This document shows, in pieces, positions 2,315 through 13,890 of a DNA stretch of 22,774 nucleotides. The notes under the pieces are model-generated. The model was not told where the DNA came from and searched no databases. It saw only the letters and a program-made list of their open reading frames with translations. Source of the stretch: a virus. Location: positions 1 through 22,774 of the IMG/VR virus record IMGVR_UViG_3300028571_002268. The stretch is one strand, 5' to 3'. Made by a program: the position numbers and the translations under genes. Position 1 is the first letter of the stretch. Each line of letters starts with the position of its first letter.

Positions 2315-2363
2315 GGCTTCACGTAATATATATCTATAGAGTCAAAAGAAAAAGGAGTTTCTT
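2315..2363. promoter_or_regulatory. Divergent intergenic region with TATA-rich core
   Basis: These 49 bases separate two divergent start codons. The core (about 2324-2340) is TAATATATATCTATAGAG, read rightward. The rightward gene has a good AAAGGAG site before its ATG. The leftward gene does not. Similar TATATATC/TATA strings occur before other gene starts (1785-1797, 13742-13755). A promoter for at least one direction is very likely here, but its exact limits are inferred. Confidence 0.45.
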
Positions 2364-3782
2364 ATGCTAAACAAATTATATAATTGGATTTTTCCAACCA
2401 AAAAAACAAACATTCTAAATAATAATCAGCCAATAGAATATTGGGTAAACGATCCGTCAATACCAGAATTAACGGGTAGCACCATGTATTCTGGTTCTAT
2501 TTTGCCTATTAACGTAAGCGGATTCGTAGGTGGCGGACATAAAATGACCACGCCAGAAGGCAGAGCAGCCAATTGCTATGCCATAGTCAATAATACTGTT
2601 GGTAGTATTACGCCAAAAATGAAAAAATTCCCTGGGCGTTGGGCAGCAACTAATACTTTGAATGTATATCCAGCAGCCGGACAAGATTTAAATGCTTTTT
2701 ATGATAGAAGCAGCCTGAAGTTTTTTTATGCCCTCGATCCTGTTGTTAAGAAGAACATCTACACATCCGACAGCAGCGATGTTGTTTCTCACGAAACCGG
2801 TCACGCCCTTCTGGATGCCATAAGACCAGATTTTTGGAATGTTCAATCTTATGAAGTTTGGGCTTTGCATGAATCTTTTGGAGATGTGGTTGCAATCTTA
2901 AATATAATTGAAAATAAAGATCTTGTAAACATGGCTTTAAAACAAACTTCTGGAGATCTCAGCAAGAGTAATGTTATATCAAAGCTCGCAGAAGAACTTG
3001 CTAAAGCTATATTCAATATAACAAAAGGAAAAAAAGGATATAGTCCTTTATTTTTAAGAGATGCTGCTAATGATTTTCACTATGTATCCCCAGACAGATT
3101 GTCTGATAACACGCCAGACAACGTTTTAAGCAGAGAATGTCATAATTTTAGTAGAGTTTGGACCGGTGCTTGGTACGCCTGTCTCGTTGGAATTTATAAT
3201 TTTAATATTAAAAATAATAATTCTAATCAATTTGATGCTTTGATGTCTGCAAAAGATGTTATGGCAAGTTATTTTTTTGAAGCGGTTCAAAATGTACCCA
3301 TGACTTCAAGATTATTTGAAGCTTTAGCTAAAAAAATAATATTAATTGATTCTGAAAATGGATCAAAATATTCTGAAGTTTTAAATAAAGTTTTCACAGA
3401 AAGAAATATTATTGGAAAATTAGGAATATTAAGCGATTTTTCTTTCAATGATCTTAAATCTGATAAAAAATTTGTTCAGACAGAATTTGATGGAAATAAA
3501 ATCTATAGGGATATGGAAAAAATAAAAGTATTGAAAATTTCAGACTACGTCAGCAAAAAAGAAGTTTTAAACAAAAATCTTTACAATGTTGAAATAGAAG
3601 TTCCTTTCGAAGACAGATACGAACTATCAAAAGATGGAATATTTATACAATCTACAAATAATATTGAAGAAAATGTAAATATTGCGGTCATGTGCTTAAA
3701 TAGTTTAAGTGAAAATAATTTATTGGGAAATCTATTTAAAATAGAAAATAATAAATTGATTAGAAATAAATTCATAAATTAA
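2364..3782 (+). CDS. Gluzincin (thermolysin-like) zinc metallopeptidase
   Basis: A 472-residue protein with a strong AAAGGAG Shine-Dalgarno site. Residues 143-147 are HETGH, the HExxH zinc site with catalytic Glu144. A HESFGD segment at 169-174 supplies Glu170, which matches the third zinc ligand in the M4/M36 pattern (ExxxD). His260 in ECHNFSRVWTGAWY lies where thermolysin-type enzymes carry their substrate-binding His. This three-part arrangement supports an active gluzincin fold rather than a chance HExxH. It has no signal peptide, so it probably acts in the cytoplasm or inside virions. The C-terminal ~130 residues are Asn/Lys-rich and of unknown role. It lies upstream of the packaging genes. 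Possible roles include head maturation, a virion-borne peptidase or an attack on a host protein. The peptidase call is good; the role is speculative. Confidence 0.82.
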   Translation: MLNKLYNWIFPTKKTNILNNNQPIEYWVNDPSIPELTGSTMYSGSILPINVSGFVGGGHKMTTPEGRAANCYAIVNNTVGSITPKMKKFPGRWAATNTLNVYPAAGQDLNAFYDRSSLKFFYALDPVVKKNIYTSDSSDVVSHETGHALLDAIRPDFWNVQSYEVWALHESFGDVVAILNIIENKDLVNMALKQTSGDLSKSNVISKLAEELAKAIFNITKGKKGYSPLFLRDAANDFHYVSPDRLSDNTPDNVLSRECHNFSRVWTGAWYACLVGIYNFNIKNNNSNQFDALMSAKDVMASYFFEAVQNVPMTSRLFEALAKKIILIDSENGSKYSEVLNKVFTERNIIGKLGILSDFSFNDLKSDKKFVQTEFDGNKIYRDMEKIKVLKISDYVSKKEVLNKNLYNVEIEVPFEDRYELSKDGIFIQSTNNIEENVNIAVMCLNSLSENNLLGNLFKIENNKLIRNKFIN

Positions 3783-3807
3783 CTAGTATATTTATGCTAA
3801 AGATACG

Positions 3808-3836
3808 TTGACTTAAAGTTAATTTGATGGTAAATT
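3808..3836 (+). promoter_or_regulatory. Sigma70-like promoter for the acidic gene
   Basis: TTGACT (3808-3813) and TAAATT (3831-3836) are separated by exactly 17 bases and lie 35 bases before the acidic gene's ATG. The -35 box matches five of six consensus bases and the -10 box four of six. The arrangement differs from the short TATA-at-ATG pattern seen before other units, so it may be an early, host-polymerase promoter. Confidence 0.5.
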
Positions 3837-3871
3837 TTCACCTCTGTTGTTAAAAAGAAAGGAAAAAGAAG

Positions 3872-4180
3872 ATGCCCCAGATTATAGACTTTGAAACCAT
3901 GCTCCCAGAAACGCTTCTTAATATTTTTTGTTTTGCGAGAGACGAAGATTATTTCGTTGATGACAACGACGATGAAGAAGAAGATTATAATGACTATGAA
4001 GAAGATGAAGAAGAAGAAGATGACGATGATGAAGATTGGGAAGAGAGCGAGTGGGAAGAAGTTGGAGATGATGAGGATGAGGATGAGGATGAGGATGATG
4101 ATGATGATGAGGATGAGGATGAGGATGAGGATGAGGATGAGGATGAGGATGAATGGGATGACGAAGAAGAAGACGATTAA
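3872..4180 (+). CDS. Hyperacidic Asp/Glu-repeat protein
   Basis: A 102-residue protein with AAAGGA about 9 bases before the ATG. Residues 1-27 are ordinary and rather hydrophobic (IIDFETMLPETLLNIFCFA). From residue 28 onward it is almost entirely Asp and Glu with a few Trp and Tyr, ending in a long (Glu-Asp)n tract. It sits alone between a sigma70-like promoter and a rho-independent terminator, so it appears to be a self-contained transcription unit. Proteins of this charge can mimic DNA (inhibitors of restriction enzymes, nucleases or nucleoid proteins) or act as charged tails. That function is inferred from charge only. The second frame across the repeat gives a Met/Arg/Lys string and is an artefact. 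Confidence 0.75.
   Translation: MPQIIDFETMLPETLLNIFCFARDEDYFVDDNDDEEEDYNDYEEDEEEEDDDDEDWEESEWEEVGDDEDEDEDEDDDDDEDEDEDEDEDEDEDEWDDEEEDD
4067..4153 (+). repeat. GATGAG hexanucleotide microsatellite
   Basis: A run of GAT and GAG/GAA codons, mostly strict GATGAG units, interrupted once by five consecutive GAT codons around 4095-4109. It encodes the Asp-Glu tract. Repeat-number change by slippage would alter acidic-tail length in 2-residue steps without shifting the frame. Confidence 0.9.
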
Positions 4181-4209
4181 TTAAAAATTAAATTTTCCTT
4201 TCTTTTTAA

Positions 4210-4236
4210 AGCTCCTAATTTTTAGGGGCTTTTTTT
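4210..4236 (+). terminator. Rho-independent terminator after the acidic gene
   Basis: A 9-bp stem (AGCTCCTAA, paired with TTAGGGGCT and including one T-G pair) with a 3-base loop, followed by a run of T through 4236. It lies 29 bases after the acidic gene's stop and ends 12 bases before the terL ATG, separating the two transcription units. It is the only convincing intrinsic terminator I found in the window. Confidence 0.85.
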
Positions 4237-4248
4237 ATACATATAGCT

Positions 4249-6012
4249 ATGGACTTTAAAGAATATTATTCAAAACACTATAACCCTAAATACTTTACTT
4301 TAAGTAACTATGAGCTCACCATAGATCCAACAGAAACAATGGATGAGGTGAATTCATATGACATGGATAGACAAAAAAAAGAAATTGTTAAATGTGTCAA
4401 TAGTTTTGAGTATTTTTGTCACAAGTATATTAAAATTCTCCATCCTGTTAAGGGATTGATACCGTTTGTTCCTTTTAACTATCAAAGAAAAGTAATAAGT
4501 GATTACGAAAAGAACAGGTTTAATATAATTTCTAAGTTTCGTCAGGGCGGTCTAACCACAGTTACTCTTCTTTGGGGTTTGTGGAGATGTATGTTTAAAT
4601 TAGATCAACAAATAATGTTGATATCTAAAACAGATAGAGAAGCCACGGACACAGGAGCCATAATAGACAGGGCTGTTGAGCACTTGCCTTCTTGGCTTAT
4701 TCCAAAAAAAGACAAGAAATGGAATGATCATTTAAAAGAATTTTCTGATACCGGTGGGGCTTTGAAATTCTATTCACCGGAAGCTTCCCGTGGTAAAAGC
4801 GTTACATTTCTAATAATAGACGAGGCTGCATTCATACCTGATATGGATAAACATTGGAAAGCTATGTGGCCAGTTTTGAGCACAGGTGGTAGCTGCGTTT
4901 TGATATCCACAGTTAATGGTATGGGAAACTGGTACGAACAAACATATAATGATGCAAGAGAAAAAAGAAATATGTTTAACGTCATAGACCTAGATTATTG
5001 GGAGCACCCAGAATATAATAACGAAAAATGGATTGATGAACAAAAACGTCAGCTAGGAGAAAAAGGATTTCTGCAGGAAGTTTTAAGAGAATTTCTTGGC
5101 TCTGGTGAGACTTATATACCTTCTAATATAATAAGAGAATTGACAGAATACACAGGAAAGATGCCTCCCATTAAAAAACTATTTCCAAAATGGACAAATA
5201 AAAGCGGAAGAGCGGCACAATTAGAAACAGACGATAGCAATAAAGGCGCTTTATGGGTTTGGAAAGAGCCAAATGAAAGTAAAGAGTACATAATTGGAGT
5301 TGACTGTGCTGATGGAATGGGAGAAGATGCAGATAATAGTTGTTTTCAAGTTTTGGACATGGAAACACTTGAGCAGGTCGCAGAGTTTTATAGTAATTTA
5401 ATACCTCCGCATTTATTTGCACAAATAATAAAAGAAGTGGGCGTGTATTATAATACAGCCTTAGTAGTAGTTGAAAACATGGCTGCTGGTGGAGCTGTCT
5501 TGAGTTCTCTACAAAACACACTATTTTATGAAAATATATTTTTTGAAACTAAGAAGAGTGGATCACAAACAATAGGATTTAAGGTCAATAGAATAAACAG
5601 ACCAATACTGCTAGAGGCTATGCAAAGTAGAATTCTTAGCAAATCAATTAGAATAAACAGCGCCAGGCTAACTTCTGAGTTACAAACATTTGAATACAAT
5701 CCAGTTACCAAGAGAGCTGAAGCCCAAAAAAGAAAGCATGACGATGCAATCTCAGCCTTATGCTTATCTTTGTATGTCAGAAACCAGATGATTCAAGACT
5801 TGCCAGTTGGAGCAAACGCTCCCCAAGAGGCAACAAGTATTTTAAGCAATGACGTTTGTCAAGAAATCAAAAGAGAGCTTTTTGATTCAAGATATGAAGA
5901 TTTTATTGAAGAAGAAATAAGCACAAGTTCCTCTATTAATGAAGACGAACAAGAGACTCTGCTTAATTTATACAGAAAAAACAACAAAATACTAAAAGAG
6001 TTCGGGTGGTAA
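4249..6012 (+). CDS. terL: Terminase large subunit (T4 gp17-like packaging ATPase/nuclease)
   Basis: A 587-residue two-domain packaging motor that translocates DNA into the prohead and cuts the concatemer. In the N-terminal ATPase, residues 96-104 (KFRQGGLTT) occupy the Walker A site with Lys at the start of the loop rather than before Thr. Walker B is LIIDEAAF at 188-195 (Asp191, Glu192), and the coupling motif is LISTVNG at 218-224. In the C-terminal RNase-H-like nuclease, Asp352 (GVDCADG), Glu409 (VVVEN) and Asp498/499 (KHDDA) form the metal site. Length and motif spacing match T4 gp17. The ATG lacks a Shine-Dalgarno site. A TATACATA box lies 5 bases before it, right after the terminator. 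The call is secure; the start codon is less so, since Met31 or Met39 are possible. Confidence 0.96.
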   Translation: MDFKEYYSKHYNPKYFTLSNYELTIDPTETMDEVNSYDMDRQKKEIVKCVNSFEYFCHKYIKILHPVKGLIPFVPFNYQRKVISDYEKNRFNIISKFRQGGLTTVTLLWGLWRCMFKLDQQIMLISKTDREATDTGAIIDRAVEHLPSWLIPKKDKKWNDHLKEFSDTGGALKFYSPEASRGKSVTFLIIDEAAFIPDMDKHWKAMWPVLSTGGSCVLISTVNGMGNWYEQTYNDAREKRNMFNVIDLDYWEHPEYNNEKWIDEQKRQLGEKGFLQEVLREFLGSGETYIPSNIIRELTEYTGKMPPIKKLFPKWTNKSGRAAQLETDDSNKGALWVWKEPNESKEYIIGVDCADGMGEDADNSCFQVLDMETLEQVAEFYSNLIPPHLFAQIIKEVGVYYNTALVVVENMAAGGAVLSSLQNTLFYENIFFETKKSGSQTIGFKVNRINRPILLEAMQSRILSKSIRINSARLTSELQTFEYNPVTKRAEAQKRKHDDAISALCLSLYVRNQMIQDLPVGANAPQEATSILSNDVCQEIKRELFDSRYEDFIEEEISTSSSINEDEQETLLNLYRKNNKILKEFGW

Positions 6013-6014
6013 AA

Positions 6015-6284
6015 ATGAAGTCTGATTATGAAACAGTAATACAACAGCTAGAATTAGCATATAAAAATTGTGGTTCTTCAAGTGAGTCTGAAGGTCTAAA
6101 AAGTATTATCAAAAATCTTATAGTTAGCTTCAATAAACTAATCATCAAAAATGAAAGAAGAGTTAACAGAAGATTAAGTGAAATCAAACATCCCAAATAT
6201 AATTATCCAAAAGAAACCCTTCAATTAATAGAAGAATTAATTGAAAAAGAAAAAGGAAAATCAAATGAGACTGTTGACAATTGA
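6015..6284 (+). CDS. Small helical protein following terL, unknown
   Basis: An 89-residue protein from the ATG at 6015, which has GGGTGG about 5 bases upstream inside the last codons of terL. A GTG at 6006 would add three residues and overlap the terL end. The protein is highly charged and helical, with many Lys, Glu and Ile and no recognisable motif. It overlaps the next gene by 20 bases, so terL, this gene and the next are probably co-transcribed. A packaging or head accessory role is suggested only by position. Confidence 0.62.
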   Translation: MKSDYETVIQQLELAYKNCGSSSESEGLKSIIKNLIVSFNKLIIKNERRVNRRLSEIKHPKYNYPKETLQLIEELIEKEKGKSNETVDN

Positions 6285-6747
6285 AAGTATAAAACTATTT
6301 GATAAAAACAATAATATAAAATATGAACAAAAAAACATAAAAAATACGTTACATCAACCTGGTGAGTTTTATATGTTAAACTCTCTGTTTGTGAGCAAAA
6401 ACACAAGAGTTGATTTTTACTATGCTGGGCTTGATAATCGAACTACTTTAAACACAACAGATACTATGGCTTCTCTGGTGGATGAGCCGTCCTCAAATGG
6501 TTATAGTAGACAAAAAATAACTTCTTGGAGTTCTCCTGTAATCTCTAATTCTGTATATGTTGTAAAAAGCAATAGCATAACTTTTTCCTCATCATCAACC
6601 GGATGGGGACCAGTTAGGAATATATTCTTAGCCACAACACAGAACCCTAGCGGATTTTTAATTTCTTCTGTCAAATTAAATCAAGAATTAACTTTAAAAG
6701 CAGGAGACACGGCTATTTTGATCATGAATTTATCTCTAAGTAATTAA
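6265..6747 (+). CDS. Small beta-sandwich virion-type protein
   Basis: A 160-residue protein with the start chosen at 6265, where AAGGA lies 7 bases before the ATG. The longer open frame begins at a TTG with no site. The order of segments is characteristic of small phage structural proteins: YYAGLDNRTT, then DTMASLVDEPSSNGYSRQ, then SITFSSSSTGWGPVRNIFLAT, then a late LKAGDTAILIM strand. Proteins of this pattern often decorate phage particles or tails. Whether this one does is an inference. The gene ends in convergent overlap (12 bases) with the next leftward gene. Confidence 0.65.
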   Translation: MRLLTIESIKLFDKNNNIKYEQKNIKNTLHQPGEFYMLNSLFVSKNTRVDFYYAGLDNRTTLNTTDTMASLVDEPSSNGYSRQKITSWSSPVISNSVYVVKSNSITFSSSSTGWGPVRNIFLATTQNPSGFLISSVKLNQELTLKAGDTAILIMNLSLSN

Positions 6748-7179
6748 AGATTCATTTAAAGTCTCTATTTTTTGAATCTCTATGCTGTGTATTGTGGTAA
6801 CTTTGTCTGAAATATCATATACTTTAAAATTAATCCATTCTGCCCCACCATCTTTTACATCAATCAATAGTTTTGAAAAAGGAATATAGTCTCTTTTTTT
6901 AAAAAACTTTTTTATCTTAGACATACTGCCTTCCCCACTGGATAAGTATATTTCGTATCCTTCTTCTGTAATTTCTATTCCTTTTGATTGATTTATATCG
7001 TCATTAGCAATTATATATTTGCAAAAAATTTCTGAAGAGGGTCCTGATACTTCAACTTTATTGTAAAACCAAACAGGAACGCTTACACCCACTACTTCCA
7101 CCTTTTCTCCTCTATAAATATCATATCTCTGTTCTCTTGTTAAAAAAATGTTATGAGAAACACATAATATAGAATTCAT
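6736..7179 (-). CDS. Unknown protein, 147 residues
   Basis: Not recognised. The sequence is beta-rich with alternating hydrophobic residues (VEVVGVSVPVWFYNKVEV near the N-terminus, IHSIEIQKIETL near the C-terminus) and a Lys-rich KIKKFFKKR stretch in the middle. There is no Shine-Dalgarno site. A TTATAGTA box ends 2 bases before the ATG. It diverges from the exported protease gene across 44 bp and overlaps the end of the preceding rightward gene by 12 bases. It has no signal peptide or transmembrane helix. Confidence 0.6.
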   Translation of the reverse strand: MNSILCVSHNIFLTREQRYDIYRGEKVEVVGVSVPVWFYNKVEVSGPSSEIFCKYIIANDDINQSKGIEITEEGYEIYLSSGEGSMSKIKKFFKKRDYIPFSKLLIDVKDGGAEWINFKVYDISDKVTTIHSIEIQKIETLNESLIT

Positions 7180-7223
7180 AATACTATAAGAGTAATATTT
7201 CTATTGAAAAACATAAATACATT
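7180..7223. promoter_or_regulatory. 44-bp divergent start region without Shine-Dalgarno sites
   Basis: Both flanking ATGs lack a Shine-Dalgarno site. Leftward, the last bases are CTCTTATAGTATT before the ATG. Rightward, they are AACATAAATACATT before the ATG, in which CATAAATA differs at one base from the T4-type late box TATAAATA. The space is very short for two promoters with ordinary leaders. Promoter assignment is an inference. Confidence 0.4.
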
Positions 7224-8102
7224 ATGATAAAATATCTATGTTTTTTACTTTTGTTAGTATTCCTTACACCGCCAGCTTTTGCCCAAAGAATTAAACATCC
7301 AATGGATAATATGCCGTTGGTTCCTCCTGTTCCTCTAACGGGGGAGAATGATCTTTATGGTATGCCGGTAGAAGAAAGAGGCGAAGAATACAAAAAATTC
7401 TTATCTCCTTCTTTGAAAATCATGGTAAGCGGCGCAAGTGGATCTGGAACTATAATTTATTATGATAAAAAAGAAAAATCAGCATATGTTGCCACCTGCG
7501 GGCATCTTTGGAGTCCTGGTGTTTTAAATTATGATCAAGCAAAAATTAAAAAGCTAAAGTGCAAGGTGCTAACCTGGTTTCATAATGATAAAAAATTAGA
7601 TGAAACAAAAACATATGAAGCAAGTGTTTTATTCTACAGTTATGTTGAAGGTTGTGACACTGCTCTAATAAAGTTTACGCCTGATTGGATCCCTGATTAT
7701 TTTCCAATTGCACCAAAAGATTACCCATACATAAAAGGTAGTATGGCGCATTCTATGGGTTGCGACGGGGGAGAAGAAGTCGCTCACTATAAAGTAGAAA
7801 TAGTCGGAATAAGAAACAGAGGTGATCTGGTAACAATTCAAAATAGTCCAAGACCAGGAAGATCAGGAGGGGGTCTTGTTGATGATAACTTTTTATATAT
7901 TGGAACTTGCTGGGGAACTACAGCGTTTGATGGTGGAGGACAAGGATTCTTTACATCATTGCCTGTTATTCACGATTTTTGGAAAAAGAATAGTTTTGAT
8001 TGGCTATTAAATATTAAAAAACAAAAAATAATTGTCTTAGATAGGAACACAAACAAAAAAGAAATAATTGAAGGCGAGTATATCTTAATGCCATCACTCT
8101 AA
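7224..8102 (+). CDS. Exported trypsin-like serine protease
   Basis: A 292-residue protein. Residues 1-20 are a textbook Sec signal peptide: Lys3, then a Leu/Phe-rich core ending in AFA before Gln21. The mature part is a chymotrypsin-fold peptidase with all three catalytic residues: His94 (ATCGHLW), Asp145 (GCDTALIKF) and Ser214 in PGRSGGGL. Length fits a single peptidase domain, without a PDZ. It should act outside the cytoplasm, in the periplasm or at the cell surface. Serine proteases with export signals are unusual in phage genomes. Roles could include degrading envelope proteins at lysis or receptor modification, but nothing proves either. There is no Shine-Dalgarno site before the ATG. 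The gene ends in a 4-base convergent overlap with the nuclease gene. Confidence 0.85.
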   Translation: MIKYLCFLLLLVFLTPPAFAQRIKHPMDNMPLVPPVPLTGENDLYGMPVEERGEEYKKFLSPSLKIMVSGASGSGTIIYYDKKEKSAYVATCGHLWSPGVLNYDQAKIKKLKCKVLTWFHNDKKLDETKTYEASVLFYSYVEGCDTALIKFTPDWIPDYFPIAPKDYPYIKGSMAHSMGCDGGEEVAHYKVEIVGIRNRGDLVTIQNSPRPGRSGGGLVDDNFLYIGTCWGTTAFDGGGQGFFTSLPVIHDFWKKNSFDWLLNIKKQKIIVLDRNTNKKEIIEGEYILMPSL

Positions 8103-8854
8103 GTGAGAGAATAAAATGGGCACATTTTTCTAAAATCACACCTTCGGCAGTGTTCGCCTGTTTTCCCAAAAACATTATCTGGATCCTTAACTTGAATATC
8201 ATTATAAATACTCAATAGCATCTTTTCTACTCCATCAAGCATAGATTGATTAAACTTTGTGGGTATTAAATCTCCCCCATCCAAGTAATAAAGAGCAGCT
8301 CGTATATTTTCTGCTTTTATCCCAAAAAGTTTTTGAACAACCTTTGCGTAACACAACATCTGCGTGTCTTGTCGGATTGTTTTGGGGGTTTTTCTCCATC
8401 GCCCCTTTTTTGTGGTTTTATAATCTATTATAAAACACATATCATCTTTAATAATTAGACGATCTATAACGCCTGTTAAGTATTTCTCATGCGGAGGATC
8501 CAAGTCATACTTAAAAAAGTATTCTGTTTCTCCATCAAAACCAACTCTATCACTTAATTTTTTAATATTTGTTATATGTTCGTTTAATTTATTTTTATAT
8601 TCAGATGTCAACTCTACTTTTTTGTCTTCTAACAGTAGTTCGCCTTTTAAATATGGTTGAAGAAATTTATTTATTTCTATTTTACCTTTATTTTTAACGT
8701 ATTCTTCTGCAACTTTATGAACAAGTTTTCCATAAAGAAAATATTCTGGTTCTGGCTCTTGAGACGATAGCTTTAAATGATATTTATATTTGTATGCCTG
8801 GTTACATTGATCCCAAAGCTGTTTTCTACTCACAGATAAGTGTTCTATTTTCAT
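8099..8854 (-). CDS. Cas4/RecB-like PD-(D/E)XK exonuclease with Fe-S cysteines
   Basis: A 251-residue protein from the ATG at 8854; the frame extends nine codons upstream but lacks a better start. Motifs in order: an N-terminal Cys17 (LWDQCNQAYKYKY), His46, Asp131 (TGVIDRL), Asp144 and Lys146 (IIDYKT), Gln165 (QMLCYA), then C-terminal Cys236, Cys239 and Cys245 (HCRRC and MCPF). This is the Cas4/AddB-type pattern, in which one N-terminal and three C-terminal cysteines hold an iron-sulphur cluster around a PD-(D/E)XK nuclease. It probably processes DNA ends in recombination or replication. No CRISPR genes accompany it. It diverges from the primase gene and has no Shine-Dalgarno site. Confidence 0.83.
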   Translation of the reverse strand: MKIEHLSVSRKQLWDQCNQAYKYKYHLKLSSQEPEPEYFLYGKLVHKVAEEYVKNKGKIEINKFLQPYLKGELLLEDKKVELTSEYKNKLNEHITNIKKLSDRVGFDGETEYFFKYDLDPPHEKYLTGVIDRLIIKDDMCFIIDYKTTKKGRWRKTPKTIRQDTQMLCYAKVVQKLFGIKAENIRAALYYLDGGDLIPTKFNQSMLDGVEKMLLSIYNDIQVKDPDNVFGKTGEHCRRCDFRKMCPFYSLT

Positions 8855-8875
8855 AAAATATAGGAGTAAATCGAA

Positions 8876-8904
8876 TTGCAAAAAAGAACAAAAATCTATA
8901 TAAT
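8876..8904 (+). promoter_or_regulatory. Promoter placing the transcript start at the primase ATG
   Basis: TTGCAA (8876-8881) and a perfect TATAAT (8899-8904) are 17 bases apart. A start 7 bases after the -10 falls on the A of the primase ATG at 8911. The sequence between has no Shine-Dalgarno site, which is consistent with a leaderless transcript. The boxes are seen directly; the transcript start is inferred. Confidence 0.6.
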
Positions 8905-8910
8905 TTAAGC

Positions 8911-9969
8911 ATGAGCATCTTTGAGAACTTCCAAAAATGGGCAGAAGATCGCTTTGACGGAGATGTAGTCGTCAAAGGAAACGAGATTGTATTAAATTCC
9001 ATTTTTGCAGATGACACAAAATATCATCTTTGGTGCAGCCCATCAGGGGGTAAAACAGAAAGAAAAAATGGTGTTTTTCATTGCTTTAAAACAGACAAAA
9101 AAGGCTCACTTCCAAAATTAATACAAATTGTAGATAAGTGTAGTTTCGAAAAAGCTATCTGCGTTCTACATGGCAGATCAACAATATCAGAGTTAGAAGA
9201 AAAGCTCTTTGAATTTTTTGAAAATATAGATGAAAATCAAGATGTTAAAATAAGTAAGCCTACAAAAGTCCAGTTGGTGTTGCCAGAAGGAAGCTGTCAA
9301 ATAAGCTCTTTGCCAAAGAATAATTTTTGGAGAAATTTAGCTGCAGACTATCTTGCCAAAAGAAAAATACCCACAGATGGATTATATATCTGCAAAACAG
9401 CACCATACAAAGCCAGAATAATAATTCCATATTATGATTCTTCTGGCGATCTTTTTTATTGGAATGGCAGACATGTTGGAAATTCAAGAATTAGATATTT
9501 AGGACCACCCAAAGAAGTCGGAATAGGCAAGTCTGAGGTTTTGTTTTTCGCTGGTGGAAACTGGGCTGAGAAAAACGAAGAAATATATCTTTGCGAAGGA
9601 GAGTTCGACGCACTCAGCCTTTTTTACAGCGGATTAAACGGGGTGGCTTGTGGCGGCAAAAACCTAAGTGAAAAGCAAATGAATTTAATAAAAGACTATA
9701 AGATAATAATATGTCTTGACAACGATAAGGCTGGTCTTGGTGGTATGACCACAATGACCGACATGATTAACAAAAATATTGAATCAAAAAATTTAAAAGA
9801 ACGATTGATGTTCGTGAGTCCTCATAAGTCTTATAAAGACTGGAATGAGATGTTTGTAAAAGAAGGTCCATCTGTGATGAAAAATTATGTTTTGGCTACA
9901 AGAAAAAATTTAGATTTCCAAGCTCCTATGGGTATGGGTGGAGATTACTTCAGAATAAAGGGAATGTAA
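8911..9969 (+). CDS. TOPRIM-domain DNA primase
   Basis: A 352-residue protein. Residues 40-60 contain Cys42, His57 and Cys58, a reduced version of the zinc finger of DnaG/T7-type primases. The TOPRIM core follows: Glu229 in LCEGEFDAL (227-235) and Asp270/Asp272 in CLDNDKAG (268-275), with a downstream KDWNE. RYLGPP at 195-200 is a common phage primase feature. There is no helicase domain, so a separate helicase is expected elsewhere. It makes RNA primers for phage replication. The ATG is preceded by a promoter rather than a Shine-Dalgarno site. The next gene's ATG overlaps its TAA stop. Confidence 0.88.
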   Translation: MSIFENFQKWAEDRFDGDVVVKGNEIVLNSIFADDTKYHLWCSPSGGKTERKNGVFHCFKTDKKGSLPKLIQIVDKCSFEKAICVLHGRSTISELEEKLFEFFENIDENQDVKISKPTKVQLVLPEGSCQISSLPKNNFWRNLAADYLAKRKIPTDGLYICKTAPYKARIIIPYYDSSGDLFYWNGRHVGNSRIRYLGPPKEVGIGKSEVLFFAGGNWAEKNEEIYLCEGEFDALSLFYSGLNGVACGGKNLSEKQMNLIKDYKIIICLDNDKAGLGGMTTMTDMINKNIESKNLKERLMFVSPHKSYKDWNEMFVKEGPSVMKNYVLATRKNLDFQAPMGMGGDYFRIKGM

Positions 9970-10328
9970 TGAATGCAAATTTAGAAAAATTCAAATATTT
10001 TGTTGGCAAACCAATAACAGTTTTCACTGTGCATACAGGCAGAAATTTCACAGAAGCTCAGTTTAACGACTACTTCACTGGTGTTTGCCAAGCTGTACAT
10101 GTGGATGCAATAGAAACCTTACATCCTATTACAAATTGTAAAAACCTTTTCTTTTTCAGCAACATTGTTGGAATTTGCGAAGAGCAACAGCTAGATCCAG
10201 AGAATCCGGAACATCAGGAAATTATAAAAGAAATTAAGAAAGAAGTTCCGGTAGAACAAAATGATCTACAGCCAAATAATTCTGTAAACATAGACATAGA
10301 TCTATTAAACAAAATAATATCTAAGTGA
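9969..10328 (+). CDS. Small protein coupled to primase, unknown
   Basis: A 119-residue protein. Its ATG shares one base with the primase TAA, and AAGGG lies about 6 bases upstream, so translation is probably coupled. Residues 10-77 are beta-rich (YFVGKPITVFTVHTGRNF, then FNDYFTGVCQAVHVDAIETL, then KNLFFFSNIVGICEEQ), resembling a small SH3-like barrel. The C-terminal ~40 residues are acidic and end in a helical tail (DIDLLNKIISK). I recognise the pattern as recurring in phages but know no function. Pairing with the primase suggests a replication-linked role, by position only. Confidence 0.6.
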   Translation: MNANLEKFKYFVGKPITVFTVHTGRNFTEAQFNDYFTGVCQAVHVDAIETLHPITNCKNLFFFSNIVGICEEQQLDPENPEHQEIIKEIKKEVPVEQNDLQPNNSVNIDIDLLNKIISK

Positions 10329-10347
10329 CTAACATACAAGCCATCAG

Positions 10348-11388
10348 TTACTCATCTTCATCTTCATCTTCATCTTCATCGAGGTGTGTTCTGAATCCTG
10401 ATATTGATATAGGTAGATGGGTAGCGAGAGTGTCTTTAACTTCGGCTGTCAAAAAAGTTCTCCAAGGAAATTCATCAGACTTATTTTCTATTTTCAAAGC
10501 TTCTTCTGGGGAATTTTTAAAATTCTTACCTTCTTTGATTAAAACATAACTTAACGCTCTTTTGAAATCAGATTCGAAGTTATCAAGAAGATCAGAATAT
10601 TCTTTTTTCAATTCTTTGTGGACCGTTTCTTTTATTTGATTTATCAAATAAACTGGAAAATCCCCAGCCTTTGTCGAATAATCTCCCAAAGCAAAGATCT
10701 TATCGGAAGGATCTTCTGGCTTTGGACCCCAGCTCCAACCCTCGTCTTTATTCCAATAAATTCTTGGAGACTTAGGTCTACCCCTAGATCTTCTGCTGAC
10801 CTGATCAGTGTTCGAACTATTTCCTTGACTCGCAGATCTGTTGCCAACTGATGTTGTTGACGATCCTGTTGGAATAGTTTCCATATTCTGAGTTCTGGCG
10901 GCATTTGTCTCCTCCTCACCACTAGCTTCTTCCTCATTCCCAACATCTGATGACGAACCAGAAGAAAATTGCTTTATTATTGCTTGTTTAAACTTACTAG
11001 CCCAGCCATCTATTATTCGCCAGAGCTTTAGCTTCTTGAGGTTTTCTGATTCAGTTTCTATATCTTCATTTAAAACAGATAAGTCCAGTTCTAGTTTATT
11101 GTATTGTTCTTTAATGAAGTTGTATTGAGATAAAGATAATCTTATTGACTCTTTTTTTGTATTATCTTCATGCCCAAGTGCGCCAAACTTATTTTTATAC
11201 ACATATGGATTATCTGGGTTATTACCACCCATCACAGTGTTGTGCCACCAATTTTTCATTCTGTTCCAAACACCAGGTAGAATACCAGTTGTTGTGGGTT
11301 TATATTGAACAACAAGCAGGTCTTTTTTTAACTGTATTACAAAATCGTCTACTAGTTTTGTAAGTTTGTCTAATTCTACTTTTTCCAT
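10348..11388 (-). CDS. Unknown protein with AT-hook-like motif and acidic tail
   Basis: A 346-residue protein. Residues 1-130 are helical with a Trp-rich patch (WNRMKNWWHNTV, 41-52). Residues 141-215 are low-complexity Ser/Gly/Glu and probably disordered. Within this, residues 199-209 read RRSRGRPKSPR, which fits the AT-hook core RGRP flanked by basic residues. Residues 245-300 are helical again. The end is DEDEDEDEDE (residues 337-346), encoded by an alternating GAT/GAA-GAG tract. The AT-hook would bind the minor groove of AT-rich DNA. Whether it does is an inference. There is no Shine-Dalgarno site; TATAATATATATTATC precedes the ATG. It begins a few bases after the stop of the gene upstream. 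Confidence 0.68.
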   Translation of the reverse strand: MEKVELDKLTKLVDDFVIQLKKDLLVVQYKPTTTGILPGVWNRMKNWWHNTVMGGNNPDNPYVYKNKFGALGHEDNTKKESIRLSLSQYNFIKEQYNKLELDLSVLNEDIETESENLKKLKLWRIIDGWASKFKQAIIKQFSSGSSSDVGNEEEASGEEETNAARTQNMETIPTGSSTTSVGNRSASQGNSSNTDQVSRRSRGRPKSPRIYWNKDEGWSWGPKPEDPSDKIFALGDYSTKAGDFPVYLINQIKETVHKELKKEYSDLLDNFESDFKRALSYVLIKEGKNFKNSPEEALKIENKSDEFPWRTFLTAEVKDTLATHLPISISGFRTHLDEDEDEDEDE

Positions 11389-11399
11389 GATAATATATA

Positions 11400-11852
11400 T
11401 TATACTTTATCAGAAATATATTCGTTTATTTTCTTCAGACTCATCAAGCAAGAGTCAAATCTATGGAAGTCACTTGTTAAATATTCAAAGGCAAGTTCGT
11501 CAAATTTATTGTCACTCTCGACCTCAAAATAGATATATTTACCTTTTTTTCCAAGCACCTTATACTTATGCATTAATATGTAAGCAGCAACACCCAAGTC
11601 TGTGGAGAATCTAATATTGCCTGTTTCATTAAAGTTATATTCTCTAATTTTCTTCAAACTCATTATGCAAGAATCGAATCTATGAAATTCGCTGCTTAAA
11701 TAATCAAGGCATATTTCATCAAATTTCTCTTCGTTTTTTTCTTCTTCTATATCAAAAAGAACCTCTCTGCCTCTTCTTCCTGCCAATTTATAATTGTGCA
11801 TAAGGACATACGAAGCAGTCCCCAGATCTTCTACGCTTTTTATTTTTTGCAT
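11400..11852 (-). CDS. Tandem DUF5659-like two-repeat protein
   Basis: A 150-residue protein made of two copies of a ~65-residue domain. Copy 1 (residues ~9-74) and copy 2 (~84-146) share DLG(T/V)A(S/A)Y(V/I)LMH, a basic GRRG/GKKG turn, KFDE, and FHRFDSC(I/L)MSLKKI. The pattern matches the small phage/bacterial domain I know as DUF5659 (short N-terminal helix, beta hairpin, acidic-aromatic segment, C-terminal helix), whose function is unknown. The duplication is recent enough that the FHRFDSC motif is intact in both copies. It lies 27 bases downstream of the actin-like gene in the same direction. There is no Shine-Dalgarno site; AATATAAGTTT precedes the ATG. Confidence 0.72.
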   Translation of the reverse strand: MQKIKSVEDLGTASYVLMHNYKLAGRRGREVLFDIEEEKNEEKFDEICLDYLSSEFHRFDSCIMSLKKIREYNFNETGNIRFSTDLGVAAYILMHKYKVLGKKGKYIYFEVESDNKFDELAFEYLTSDFHRFDSCLMSLKKINEYISDKV

Positions 11853-11879
11853 AAACTTATATTAGTTAAAAATTTAAAA

Positions 11880-12887
11880 TTAATTGGCAGCTTCAGAAGC
11901 TAGCAAGCAACCTCTAGCAACACTGAAAAGTGGATCTTTTGGCTGGATAACTTCACCTATTTTAACAGATAAATCTGCTTCTTTTAAGCATTGGGCAAGT
12001 AAATCTTTGAAGCCCGGCGGGCTTGATGTACCACCGGCAACAACGAAGTCTATTTCTTGATCTGTCTTAACACTCTTTGATGTATTTTGAAGACCTTTTT
12101 TAATGCCTGTCACAGTGTGCTCCAACATTAGCCTATACTGGGTTTGTATGGCTCTTTCAACAAGAGTTGTGGCAGGTTTTGTTAAGTCTATCTTGGTCTT
12201 CTCTTTGTTTATAAATGTTGTGCTCTCTCCTGTTGCCTTGGCAGCCATTTTATCAATCCAGTCACCACTATTAACAATAGAAAATGAAAACAATGGATTG
12301 CCAAACATTGCAAAACAAACATTTACCATGCCCCCACCAAAACTCATTCCAATGCCCGTAAAGGCTTTGTGAGATAATTCGGCATAAACTAAGGCTAATG
12401 CTTCGTTTATCGGTCTGGGGTCAACTGTATAGCCTTGCTCTGATTTATAAGCCTTGAATATAGCCTCTAATATTTTTCCGTGATAATCAGCGTCAGTTTC
12501 TTCGTTTATAGCGTTTGCGGGTACGCAATAATATAATATTTCTTTATCCTTGCTCACTTCGCCAATTAAACTGTGAATCATAATGCTTAATATTTGAAAA
12601 GCATCTTTTTCCTTTGGATTAACACACCCGGAAGTCATCGGTCTTTTTAGCTCAAGACCACTCATCGTGTACGCCATATTAACAGCAGCCTCGCCCAAAG
12701 CATACGCAACTTTTTCTCTTTCAATCAAAGGAACTCCTGCGTTTTTCATCATATTGAAAACAAACTTGTTCTCTAAGGGCATTTCTAAAAAAGCATTTAT
12801 TTCTTTTTTATAAGAGAAATTATTTGATTCATCTCTTTTGCAACAAACGAGCGTATAAGTTCCGACATCAAATCCGATTTTAGACAT
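11880..12887 (-). CDS. Actin-like (ParM/MreB-fold) ATPase
   Basis: A 335-residue protein from the ATG at 12887, chosen because GGAAAGG sits just upstream in the end of the previous gene. The longer frame starts at an unsupported codon. Actin-fold landmarks in order: phosphate-1 GFDVGTYT (5-11), connect-1 INEALALVYAE (160-170), phosphate-2 GMSFGGGMVNV (180-190), adenosine loop VVAGGTSSPPGF (282-293), connect-2 ARGCLLAS (324-331). In phosphate-2 a Ser-Phe replaces the usual Asp before GGG, so activity may be altered. Phage actins known elsewhere (such as Alp6A and AlpC) form filaments that move DNA or plasmids. Here a filament role is likely but inferred. It could instead be a non-polymerising sugar-kinase/Hsp70-fold enzyme. 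Confidence 0.8.
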   Translation of the reverse strand: MSKIGFDVGTYTLVCCKRDESNNFSYKKEINAFLEMPLENKFVFNMMKNAGVPLIEREKVAYALGEAAVNMAYTMSGLELKRPMTSGCVNPKEKDAFQILSIMIHSLIGEVSKDKEILYYCVPANAINEETDADYHGKILEAIFKAYKSEQGYTVDPRPINEALALVYAELSHKAFTGIGMSFGGGMVNVCFAMFGNPLFSFSIVNSGDWIDKMAAKATGESTTFINKEKTKIDLTKPATTLVERAIQTQYRLMLEHTVTGIKKGLQNTSKSVKTDQEIDFVVAGGTSSPPGFKDLLAQCLKEADLSVKIGEVIQPKDPLFSVARGCLLASEAAN

Positions 12888-12888
12888 A

Positions 12889-13122
12889 TCAATTACCCTT
12901 TCCAAAATTAATTTTTTCAGATACAAAGTCTGGAATAGCCCAAGCTACTTTGTCTTCTGCGTTACCCATAGAGGTTTCTTTACTAGCAGTAGATTTGCCA
13001 TCAACAGACAAGGCTTCTATGGAACCATTCATGTTTATATTTAAATCCAAAGTTATAGAAACTTTTAACTCGCCATCTTTTGTTATAATTTTAACATCAC
13101 TTGGTCTTATTAGTTGTGCCAT
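12889..13122 (-). CDS. Small protein coupled to the actin-like gene
   Basis: A 77-residue protein with AGGTGA about 5 bases before the ATG. Residues 10-40 hold beta strands of alternating polar and hydrophobic residues. Residues 57-75 carry VAWAIPDFVSEKINFGK, a hydrophobic-aromatic peptide that looks like a docking segment. Its stop codon (TGA) lies one base before the actin-like ATG, and its last codons supply that gene's Shine-Dalgarno site. Coupled small proteins beside phage actins are typically DNA-binding adaptors, but nothing here resembles a known ParR. The function is unknown. Confidence 0.65.
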   Translation of the reverse strand: MAQLIRPSDVKIITKDGELKVSITLDLNINMNGSIEALSVDGKSTASKETSMGNAEDKVAWAIPDFVSEKINFGKGN

Positions 13123-13130
13123 TATTTCAC

Positions 13131-13700
13131 CTATTTCTTGGTGGACTCAGTAACTACTATTGCCGAGATAACTTGTAGGGAAACAGGACCAGAAGAACCA
13201 TCAGGTAATTTAGCTTCTATTTTCTGAATATTCAGATCTCCCACATTAAAAACTTGAACTTCTTTTGCTCCAAGATCAAAAATAGCACTATTTATGCCGT
13301 TTAGTTTTATTTGAACTGGATCTTCTGATTGATTTGCTATTTGAACAAAGTCTGCAAAACTATTCGTGTCACCTTGTATATCAATTACATTGTCTGTAAA
13401 ATCTGTACCATCTTGAACAGTTATTTTGTAAACCCTAGGAATATTATTGCTATCAGTCTTATCATACCAGGCTGAACCATCGTCTTCCAGAATAATAAGG
13501 AAAGCTAAATCAGCAGAAGTATTGGGAAAAACATACCTTTTCCAGTAGTTGGAGCCAGAAAACGTTTCTCCATCTTTTAGCTCACGGCTAATTCTGTCTG
13601 GACCCATAGCGTAAACACTTCTTTGTATGCTTAAGCCATTAGGGTCATTATCTAGCAAGCCTTGTGTGCCATTGTTCAATTTTACTTTAAATATGCTCAT
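13131..13700 (-). CDS. Beta-rich protein, unknown, first gene of actin operon
   Basis: A 189-residue protein with no signal peptide. The sequence is dominated by alternating strands and turns (FLIILEDDGSAWYDKTD, then DFVQIANQSEDPVQIKLNGI, then LGAKEVQVFNVGDLNIQKIEA), consistent with a small beta-sandwich. I recognise no family. It begins a leftward transcription unit running through the actin-like gene. It lacks a Shine-Dalgarno site; TATATAAG ends 2 bases before the ATG, and it diverges from a plus-strand gene across 55 bp. A structural role would fit its fold, but that is a guess. Confidence 0.62.
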   Translation of the reverse strand: MSIFKVKLNNGTQGLLDNDPNGLSIQRSVYAMGPDRISRELKDGETFSGSNYWKRYVFPNTSADLAFLIILEDDGSAWYDKTDSNNIPRVYKITVQDGTDFTDNVIDIQGDTNSFADFVQIANQSEDPVQIKLNGINSAIFDLGAKEVQVFNVGDLNIQKIEAKLPDGSSGPVSLQVISAIVVTESTKK

Positions 13701-13755
13701 ATCTTATATATACAGCTCTGTTATAAAACCCACCAGATTTAGGCTATATATCTAT
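13701..13755. promoter_or_regulatory. 55-bp divergent start region with mirrored TATA boxes
   Basis: Leftward, the sequence reads CTGTATATATAAGAT before the ATG. Rightward, GGCTATATATCTAT stands before the ATG. Neither has a Shine-Dalgarno site. The two boxes mirror each other around a central AAAACCCACCAG, so each gene seems to carry its own TATA element right at the start codon. Confidence 0.45.
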
Positions 13756-13890
13756 ATGGACGAAGAAAAAATAGAAGAATCAAAAGATGCACTTGAAACT
13801 TTTTTCGGTCAATTTGGTCAAAATGATTTATACACACAAACAATATTAGAGATGATATTCGAGGAGATGTTCAAAAAAAATGAAAAGTAA
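13756..13890 (+). CDS. Small acidic protein, 44 residues
   Basis: The start is placed at the ATG at 13756. The frame runs further upstream, but only across the divergent promoter region and the neighbouring gene. The product is short, acidic and helical (Glu/Asp-rich with a Phe-Gly-Gln-Phe-Gly-Gln centre), with no family I recognise. It overlaps the start of the next gene by 11 bases. It may be a leader or a small regulator. Confidence 0.5.
   Translation: MDEEKIEESKDALETFFGQFGQNDLYTQTILEMIFEEMFKKNEK

Follow-up and report, generated by a model that had tools for sequence, protein, structure and literature searches.

Late transcription in phage T4 starts from a promoter box at positions −13 to −6, which lacks a −35 element and is read by gp55 (PMC2988020). 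Leaderless genes are widespread in bacteria, where the in silico criterion is a TA signal (TANNNT) ~10–12 bp before the start (PMC3160421). Huge phages whose genes lack Shine-Dalgarno (SD) sites have been linked to a phage-encoded ribosomal protein S1 (rpS1; Al-Shayeb et al. 2020, PMC7162821), and the late promoters of phiKZ consist of TATG, the G being the start (cited in PMC5312081). Here we describe TATA-type boxes that end a few nucleotides (nt) before start codons in a 22,774-base virus contig from IMG/VR (IMGVR_UViG_3300028571_002268; this whole stretch is hereafter ‘the window’) and in its relatives. These are very probably T4-late-type boxes, read by the host RNA polymerase with a gp55-like sigma factor and giving leaderless messages that begin at the AUG.

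The window carries genes for a T4-type terminase large subunit (4249–6012, + strand), a Toprim primase (8911+), a PDDEXK exonuclease (8854−), a trypsin-like peptidase (7224+), a volactin-like actin (12887−) and PKD-type structural proteins (genes are named by their start positions). Through the terminase we found 52 relatives, with contigs of up to 381 kb; the terminase of relative G001 is 81% identical to that of the window. Among named records, the uncultured phage LR756511, of 595 kb, matches best (terminase 51%, volactin 63%). The window is thus a piece of a huge phage. The comparisons below use ~1.8 Mb, namely eight relatives and 200 kb of LR756511, with genes called by our own program, which chose start codons by coding signal and used neither upstream signals nor protein data.

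A box close to the start codon across the phage family

The initial annotation of the window had proposed that genes opening a transcription unit lack SD sites and carry a TATA box at the ATG, and had suggested motif discovery as a check. De novo expectation maximization (EM) recovered the box at first genes and not at internal genes: for unit-opening genes without SD sites it returned ATATATA/TATATA concentrated at −14 to −10 (window's clade and G010), with TATATA/TAWATA occupying −13 to −6, and for internal genes nothing comparable. When confined to the last 20 nt, EM gave aTAWATAa in G010, aATATATA in the window's clade and nnTAaATA in G014, G006 and G007 together, a consensus of [A/C]TAWATA across three groups in which the last A reaches 0.97 in G010. 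The 32 nt upstream of the aligned boxes show no −35-type motif; only a patch weakly enriched in A/T stands out. Width-8 EM on the LR756511 pieces alone returned an unrelated TTGgctaa, and the box peak of this phage is visible only with a fixed pattern.

With TAWATA as that pattern, boxes peak at spacers of 4–8 nt between box and ATG in every relative group, the observed and expected counts being 65 vs 10.9 in the window's clade, 38 vs 3.9 in G010, 18 vs 3.8 in G014 and G006, 19 vs 7.2 in G007, 10 vs 2.8 in LR756511 and 8 vs 2.3 in G011. ATGs other than gene starts give a flat profile with no such peak. We call genes with a box at 4–8 nt leaderless-type; their share is 15.3% among divergent genes and 3.9% among internal ones. 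Both EM and the positional peaks reproduce in the relatives the restriction of the box mainly to unit-opening genes.

The boxes are also conserved. Those of the window persist at the same distance in close relatives, and box conservation reaches orthologues with 23–50% protein identity whose upstream regions are otherwise different. When a leaderless-type gene was paired with its orthologue by reciprocal best hits, the partner was leaderless-type too in 42% of pairs vs a 7% baseline, and still in 35% of pairs under 45% identity. The head–tail adaptor gp13/Ad2 (phrog_211) could be followed in 56 distinct viral upstream regions: the box lies at 4–8 nt in 35 of these (40 when TAGATA and spacers of 3–9 nt are counted), 15 are of the SD-led type and none has a box at 10–13 nt. 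On the gp13 protein tree the leaderless register occurs to either side of the midpoint root. Five register changes are needed vs a shuffled mean of 13–14, and gp13 has gone over to the SD-led register ~4–5 times.

One probable promoter type in two registers

Pooled over the dataset, box counts by spacer are 158 (4–8 nt), 24 (9–13), 48 (14–18), 52 (19–23) and 62 (24–28), against ~20 expected per 5-nt bin from the far-upstream rate. SD frequency follows the nearest box: SD sites precede 5 of 136 genes with a box at 4–8 nt, 5 of 20 at 9–13 nt and 133 of 168 (79%) at 14–33 nt, this last compared with 467 of 949 genes without a box (49%; Fisher p = 2e-13). Neither the near-empty 9–13 nt zone nor the SD excess at 14–33 nt is forced by geometry. 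An RNA start ~5 nt past the box would account for both, because a spacer of 9–13 nt would leave a 4–8-nt leader, too short for an SD site yet not leaderless.

Leaderless-type genes include gp13, gp15, gp25, a baseplate wedge gene, a tail-tube paralogue, polynucleotide kinase and RusA, with terminase and primase in addition in the window's clade, while boxes with SD-led starts precede most of the major capsid, prohead protease, sheath and portal genes. Virion genes thus occur in both sets and no clean functional rule separates them, though there are hints, in a split that is not clean, that very abundant products keep SD leaders. Taken together, the upstream regions suggest that one promoter type is used in two registers, leaderless and SD-led, between which single genes switch over evolution. 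The initial annotation had counted SD sites at orthologous starts against leaderless transcription. Such sites do occur in some distant relatives, where orthologues of 2314, 7179 and 7224 often have the box 14–35 nt upstream with the SD site between, a shift which therefore supports the box as a promoter and is not a refutation.

Candidate readers of the box

A likeness to T4 late promoters, already suspected in the initial annotation, is borne out by the EM matrices ([A/C]TAWATA and nnTAaATA), which match the ATAAATA at the heart of the late box of T4. Five relatives (G001, G010, G011, G014 and LR756511) encode gp55-like sigma factors of ~170–190 residues, most of whose length is covered by the match to phrog_234, ‘late sigma transcription factor’; PHROGs was decisive here, as phmmer against PDB gave weak sigma-region-2 matches only. 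A search of 14 records, LR756511 with its 595 kb among them, yielded no RNA polymerase beta-prime (PF00623). The simplest reader of the box would be the host polymerase with the gp55-like sigma. In T4, late promoters are activated by the sliding clamp gp45 and the co-activator gp33. A search for the gp45 clamp (PF02916) matched no genome, controls included, and is hence uninformative. A second, divergent gp55-like paralogue is encoded in G010 (C1:66085–66504) and LR756511 (400597–400923).

We propose that the strings are T4-late-type −10 boxes ([A/C]TAWATA), without a −35 element, which the host RNA polymerase would read with the phage gp55-like sigma. As T4 boxes lie at −13 to −6, transcription from a box 4–8 nt before the ATG would begin with the A of the AUG or no more than ~3 nt away from it, and the message, having no room for an SD site, would be translated as leaderless mRNA. 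Operon-internal genes and genes with a box at least 14 nt upstream would use ordinary SD sites.

Several observations weigh against this proposal. The lack of SD sites at spacers of 4–8 nt is partly forced, as the box sits on the SD position. With strict TAWATA just 15% of divergent genes count as leaderless-type, which makes the window unusually rich in them, and single genes within it reach box p values of only 0.03–0.07 because the region is AT-rich. The gp55-like sigma was not found in the window, nor in the incomplete G003 and G004, and its recognition of the box is argued by analogy with T4. The exact 5′ end at the AUG and translation from a 5′-terminal AUG are, like that recognition, points that we infer from sequence. 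Finally, gene starts come from our own caller; those of gp13 and terminase are backed by conserved N-termini, and many best-hit pairs align from residue 1.

Homologues of the translation factor IF3 are encoded in G004, G007 and LR756511 (325993–326250, − strand), and homologues of ribosomal protein S21 in G004 and G007; the translation factor genes lie at C1:137628–137888(−) and 140590–140712(−) in G004 and at C1:149543–149803 and 143297–143419 in G007. E. coli IF3 discriminates against leaderless mRNAs, which makes a phage IF3 beside leaderless genes a lead. We offer only as a tentative speculation that the two registers form a regulatory system, in which the phage would sort its late genes between the two kinds of message with a single promoter type, and phage IF3 and S21 might bias the ribosomes of the infected cell between leaderless and SD-led late messages.

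Alternative explanations

The messages could be leaderless and the box nonetheless an ordinary host sigma-70 element, an extended or plain −10 (TANNNT) as in Actinobacteria or Deinococcus. TANNNT ~12 bp upstream of leaderless starts is indeed widespread in bacteria (PMC3160421), and TATAAT occurs inside some window boxes (8911). However, the final base of the matrix is A and not T (TAWATA), with A or C preceding, as in the T4 ATAAATA core; no −35 is conserved; SD-led genes for head, packaging and tail have the same box 14–33 nt upstream; and the relatives encode a gp55-like sigma. We consider a sigma-70 element unlikely on these grounds.

Two further explanations would dispense with leaderless initiation. 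One holds that the TATA strings are AT-rich, unstructured ribosome standby or initiation sequences on longer, leadered mRNAs with promoters farther upstream, as the AT-rich regions and the marginal p values of single window boxes might suggest. This is very improbable given a specific heptamer at a specific distance that is scarce at internal genes, the near-empty 9–13 nt zone, the T4-like distance of the box when an SD site is present, its retention between orthologues only 23–50% identical, and a strong peak in G010 despite its 43% GC. The other, which we regard as marginally less probable still, is that starts are misassigned, the RNA beginning at the annotated ATG and translation farther downstream, at a codon that follows an SD site. 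The position of the box would then be compatible with ordinary SD initiation, and our caller did pick starts by coding signal and not from protein data; but among gp13 orthologues conserved residues already occur a few codons from the ATG, the alignments of many leaderless-type best-hit pairs open at residues 1–8, and terminase aligns from residue 1–2 in close relatives. Host polymerase with a gp55-like sigma, giving messages that start at the AUG, thus remains the explanation we favour.

Boxes and other features of the window

All ten unit-opening genes singled out in the initial annotation lie where it placed them, and none has a GGAG/GAGG/AGGA/AAGG-like string in its last 18 nt. Its observation of TATA strings close to the ATG is confirmed, with differences in strength: six of the ten (4249, 7224, 8911, 11388, 13700 and 13756) have a strong box at spacers of 4–8 nt, that of 11852 is weaker, those of 7179 and 8854 are poor taken alone, and 2314 has none at 4–8 nt (Table 1). 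Gene 2314 had rightly been set apart, its box lying 12 nt from the ATG in the relatives as well. Internal genes 651, 1475, 1766, 12887, 13122, 19966 and 21350 have SD-like sites, that of 12887 being weak, and SD sites also precede 2364 and 3872, as had been noted; genes 6015, 14517, 15347 and 22011 have neither SD site nor box.

With a scoring matrix derived from a different genome, that of relative G010, the ten genes sum to 41.9 vs 12.8 ± 8.4 for shuffled sequence (z = 3.5), above all 3,000 dinucleotide shuffles. By itself the window is suggestive and provides modest evidence; the relatives carry the case.

Table 1. Candidate promoter boxes and an SD site in the window, with matrix scores and conservation.
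Feature	Position	Strand	Score	Remarks
Palindromic TATATA, common to divergent pair 2314(−)/2364(+)	2327..2332	.		both distances kept in close clade
Shine-Dalgarno AGGAG of gene 2364 (SD-led register)	2353..2357	+		from sequence; kept in relatives
Box TACATA, 5 nt before terminase ATG (4249–6012)	4238..4243	+	4.87	TAGATA at equal distance in relatives
Weak box CTTATA, 5 nt before ATG of 6736–7179(−)	7185..7190	−		alone not significant; orthologues CATATA at 5 nt
Box TAAATA, 4 nt before trypsin-like peptidase ATG (7224–8102)	7214..7219	+	7.70	identical in seven close relatives
Weak box CCTATA, 4 nt before PDDEXK exonuclease ATG (8099–8854)	8859..8864	−		alone not significant
Box TATATA overlapping TATAAT, 8 nt before primase/Toprim ATG (8911–9969)	8897..8902	+	7.20	kept in eight close loci
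Box TATATA, 5 nt before ATG of 10348–11388(−)	11394..11399	−	7.68	kept
Box AATATA, 5 nt before ATG of 11400–11852(−)	11858..11863	−		weak alone; kept in close relatives
Box TATATA, 4 nt before ATG of 13131–13700(−), first volactin-operon gene	13705..13710	−	7.68	
Box TATATA, 5 nt before ATG of 44-aa gene 13756–13890(+)	13745..13750	+	7.20	CTATATA-TCTGT-ATG in relatives

The weak boxes are clearer in orthologues. Gene 7179 itself has CTTATAG, and its orthologues have CATATAATGTT-ATG or CATATAATAAC-ATG; 8854 has CCTATAT, and its G004 orthologue has CCTATAGTTT-ATG. The box of 11388 is retained though protein identity falls to 34–47%. More distant orthologues of 11852 have GA-rich or SD-type sites in place of the box. 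G001 and G003, whose proteins are 75% and 51% identical, retain the box of 13700, the orthologues in G014, G006 and G010 being SD-led.

The palindrome between 2314 and 2364 lies 12 nt from the ATG of 2314, which has no SD site, and 31 nt from that of 2364, with AGGAG between. The 12-nt distance without an SD site is conserved for 2314 in the window's clade (G001 and G003 included); its message probably has a ~7-nt leader, a possible third form beside the leaderless and SD-led ones. Divergent pairs 15–50 bp apart often have one palindromic TATATA in common, as here and in G010 (63503/64315 and 92542/93538), which may be a bidirectional promoter.

The actin gene at 11880–12887(−) belongs to the volactin family (PF25216, E = 6e-66) and shares its operon with two conserved small genes; its relatives occur in LR756511 (identity as above) and LR745208 (34%). 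The family takes its name from haloarchaea. In LR745208, a distant, volactin-bearing relative of 55% GC, the box is absent from the 100 kb scanned, and the box therefore does not track volactin. A direct repeat, ggtgtctctgtt, lies at the contig edge (1–90), and gene 3872–4180 encodes an Asp/Glu-rich low-complexity protein of 102 amino acids (aa) that is kept in the close clade. A GTDB scan with the gp13 alignment gave no match to a host. A Bacteroidota-like host is weakly disfavoured, because SD use is widespread in this phage family and a Flavobacterium phage control has SD sites in 0–9% of genes.

Comparison with known systems

T4 late transcription is a textbook case of a promoter separate from the ribosome site, and this huge-phage family seems to have fused the two on a subset of genes. 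The combination, family-wide, of two known kinds of element, T4-type late promoters and leaderless genes, is in our judgement new: our literature search on leaderless messages in jumbo, T4-like and cyanophage contexts, which left most subscription journals outside its scope, found no earlier description of gp55-type promoters driving them. As one and the same gene has repeatedly changed between the leaderless and the SD-led form while retaining its box, the family offers a natural experiment on the evolution of translation initiation. It also supplies a simple rule by which starts and operons of huge phages can be called, and an explanation, besides phage S1 proteins, for some SD-less phage genes.

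The genes without a recognisable SD site recall the SD-poor huge phages (PMC7162821); there the explanation is rpS1, whereas here it would be leaderless transcription. As a candidate cause, an S1-domain protein was rejected, none being found in the 13 relatives searched. With phiKZ the family shares jumbo phages and very short late promoter signals able to include the ATG, but phiKZ has its own multisubunit RNA polymerase and none was detected in the relatives. The bacterial TA-led leaderless genes (PMC3160421) have a −10 signal ~10–12 bp before the start and no SD site, a pattern also seen here in the 4–8 nt peak of every relative and the near-lack of SD sites behind it. Those genes are cellular and have a sigma-70 TANNNT, in contrast to a late-phage-type box in huge phages that also use SD sites elsewhere.

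The likeness to T4 late promoters comprises several features: an 8-bp TATA-type −10 box, no −35, a gp55-like sigma, virion genes driven in both orientations and, as proposed here, a host RNA polymerase core. The family consensus tolerates T at the W position, unlike T4. The main difference lies in the layout, as the T4-like control phages checked do not show this arrangement of a promoter ~5 bases before the start codon: at 4–8 nt, boxes are absent from the Vibrio schizoT4, Syn9 and Microcystis phages, and P-SSM2 has one. Within the late region of T4, the end of TATAAATA mostly falls 24–28 nt ahead of the ATG and is always at least 14 nt away, with the SD site between. The T4 box thus leaves a leader with an SD site, whereas in this huge-phage family many boxes end 4–8 nt before the ATG.

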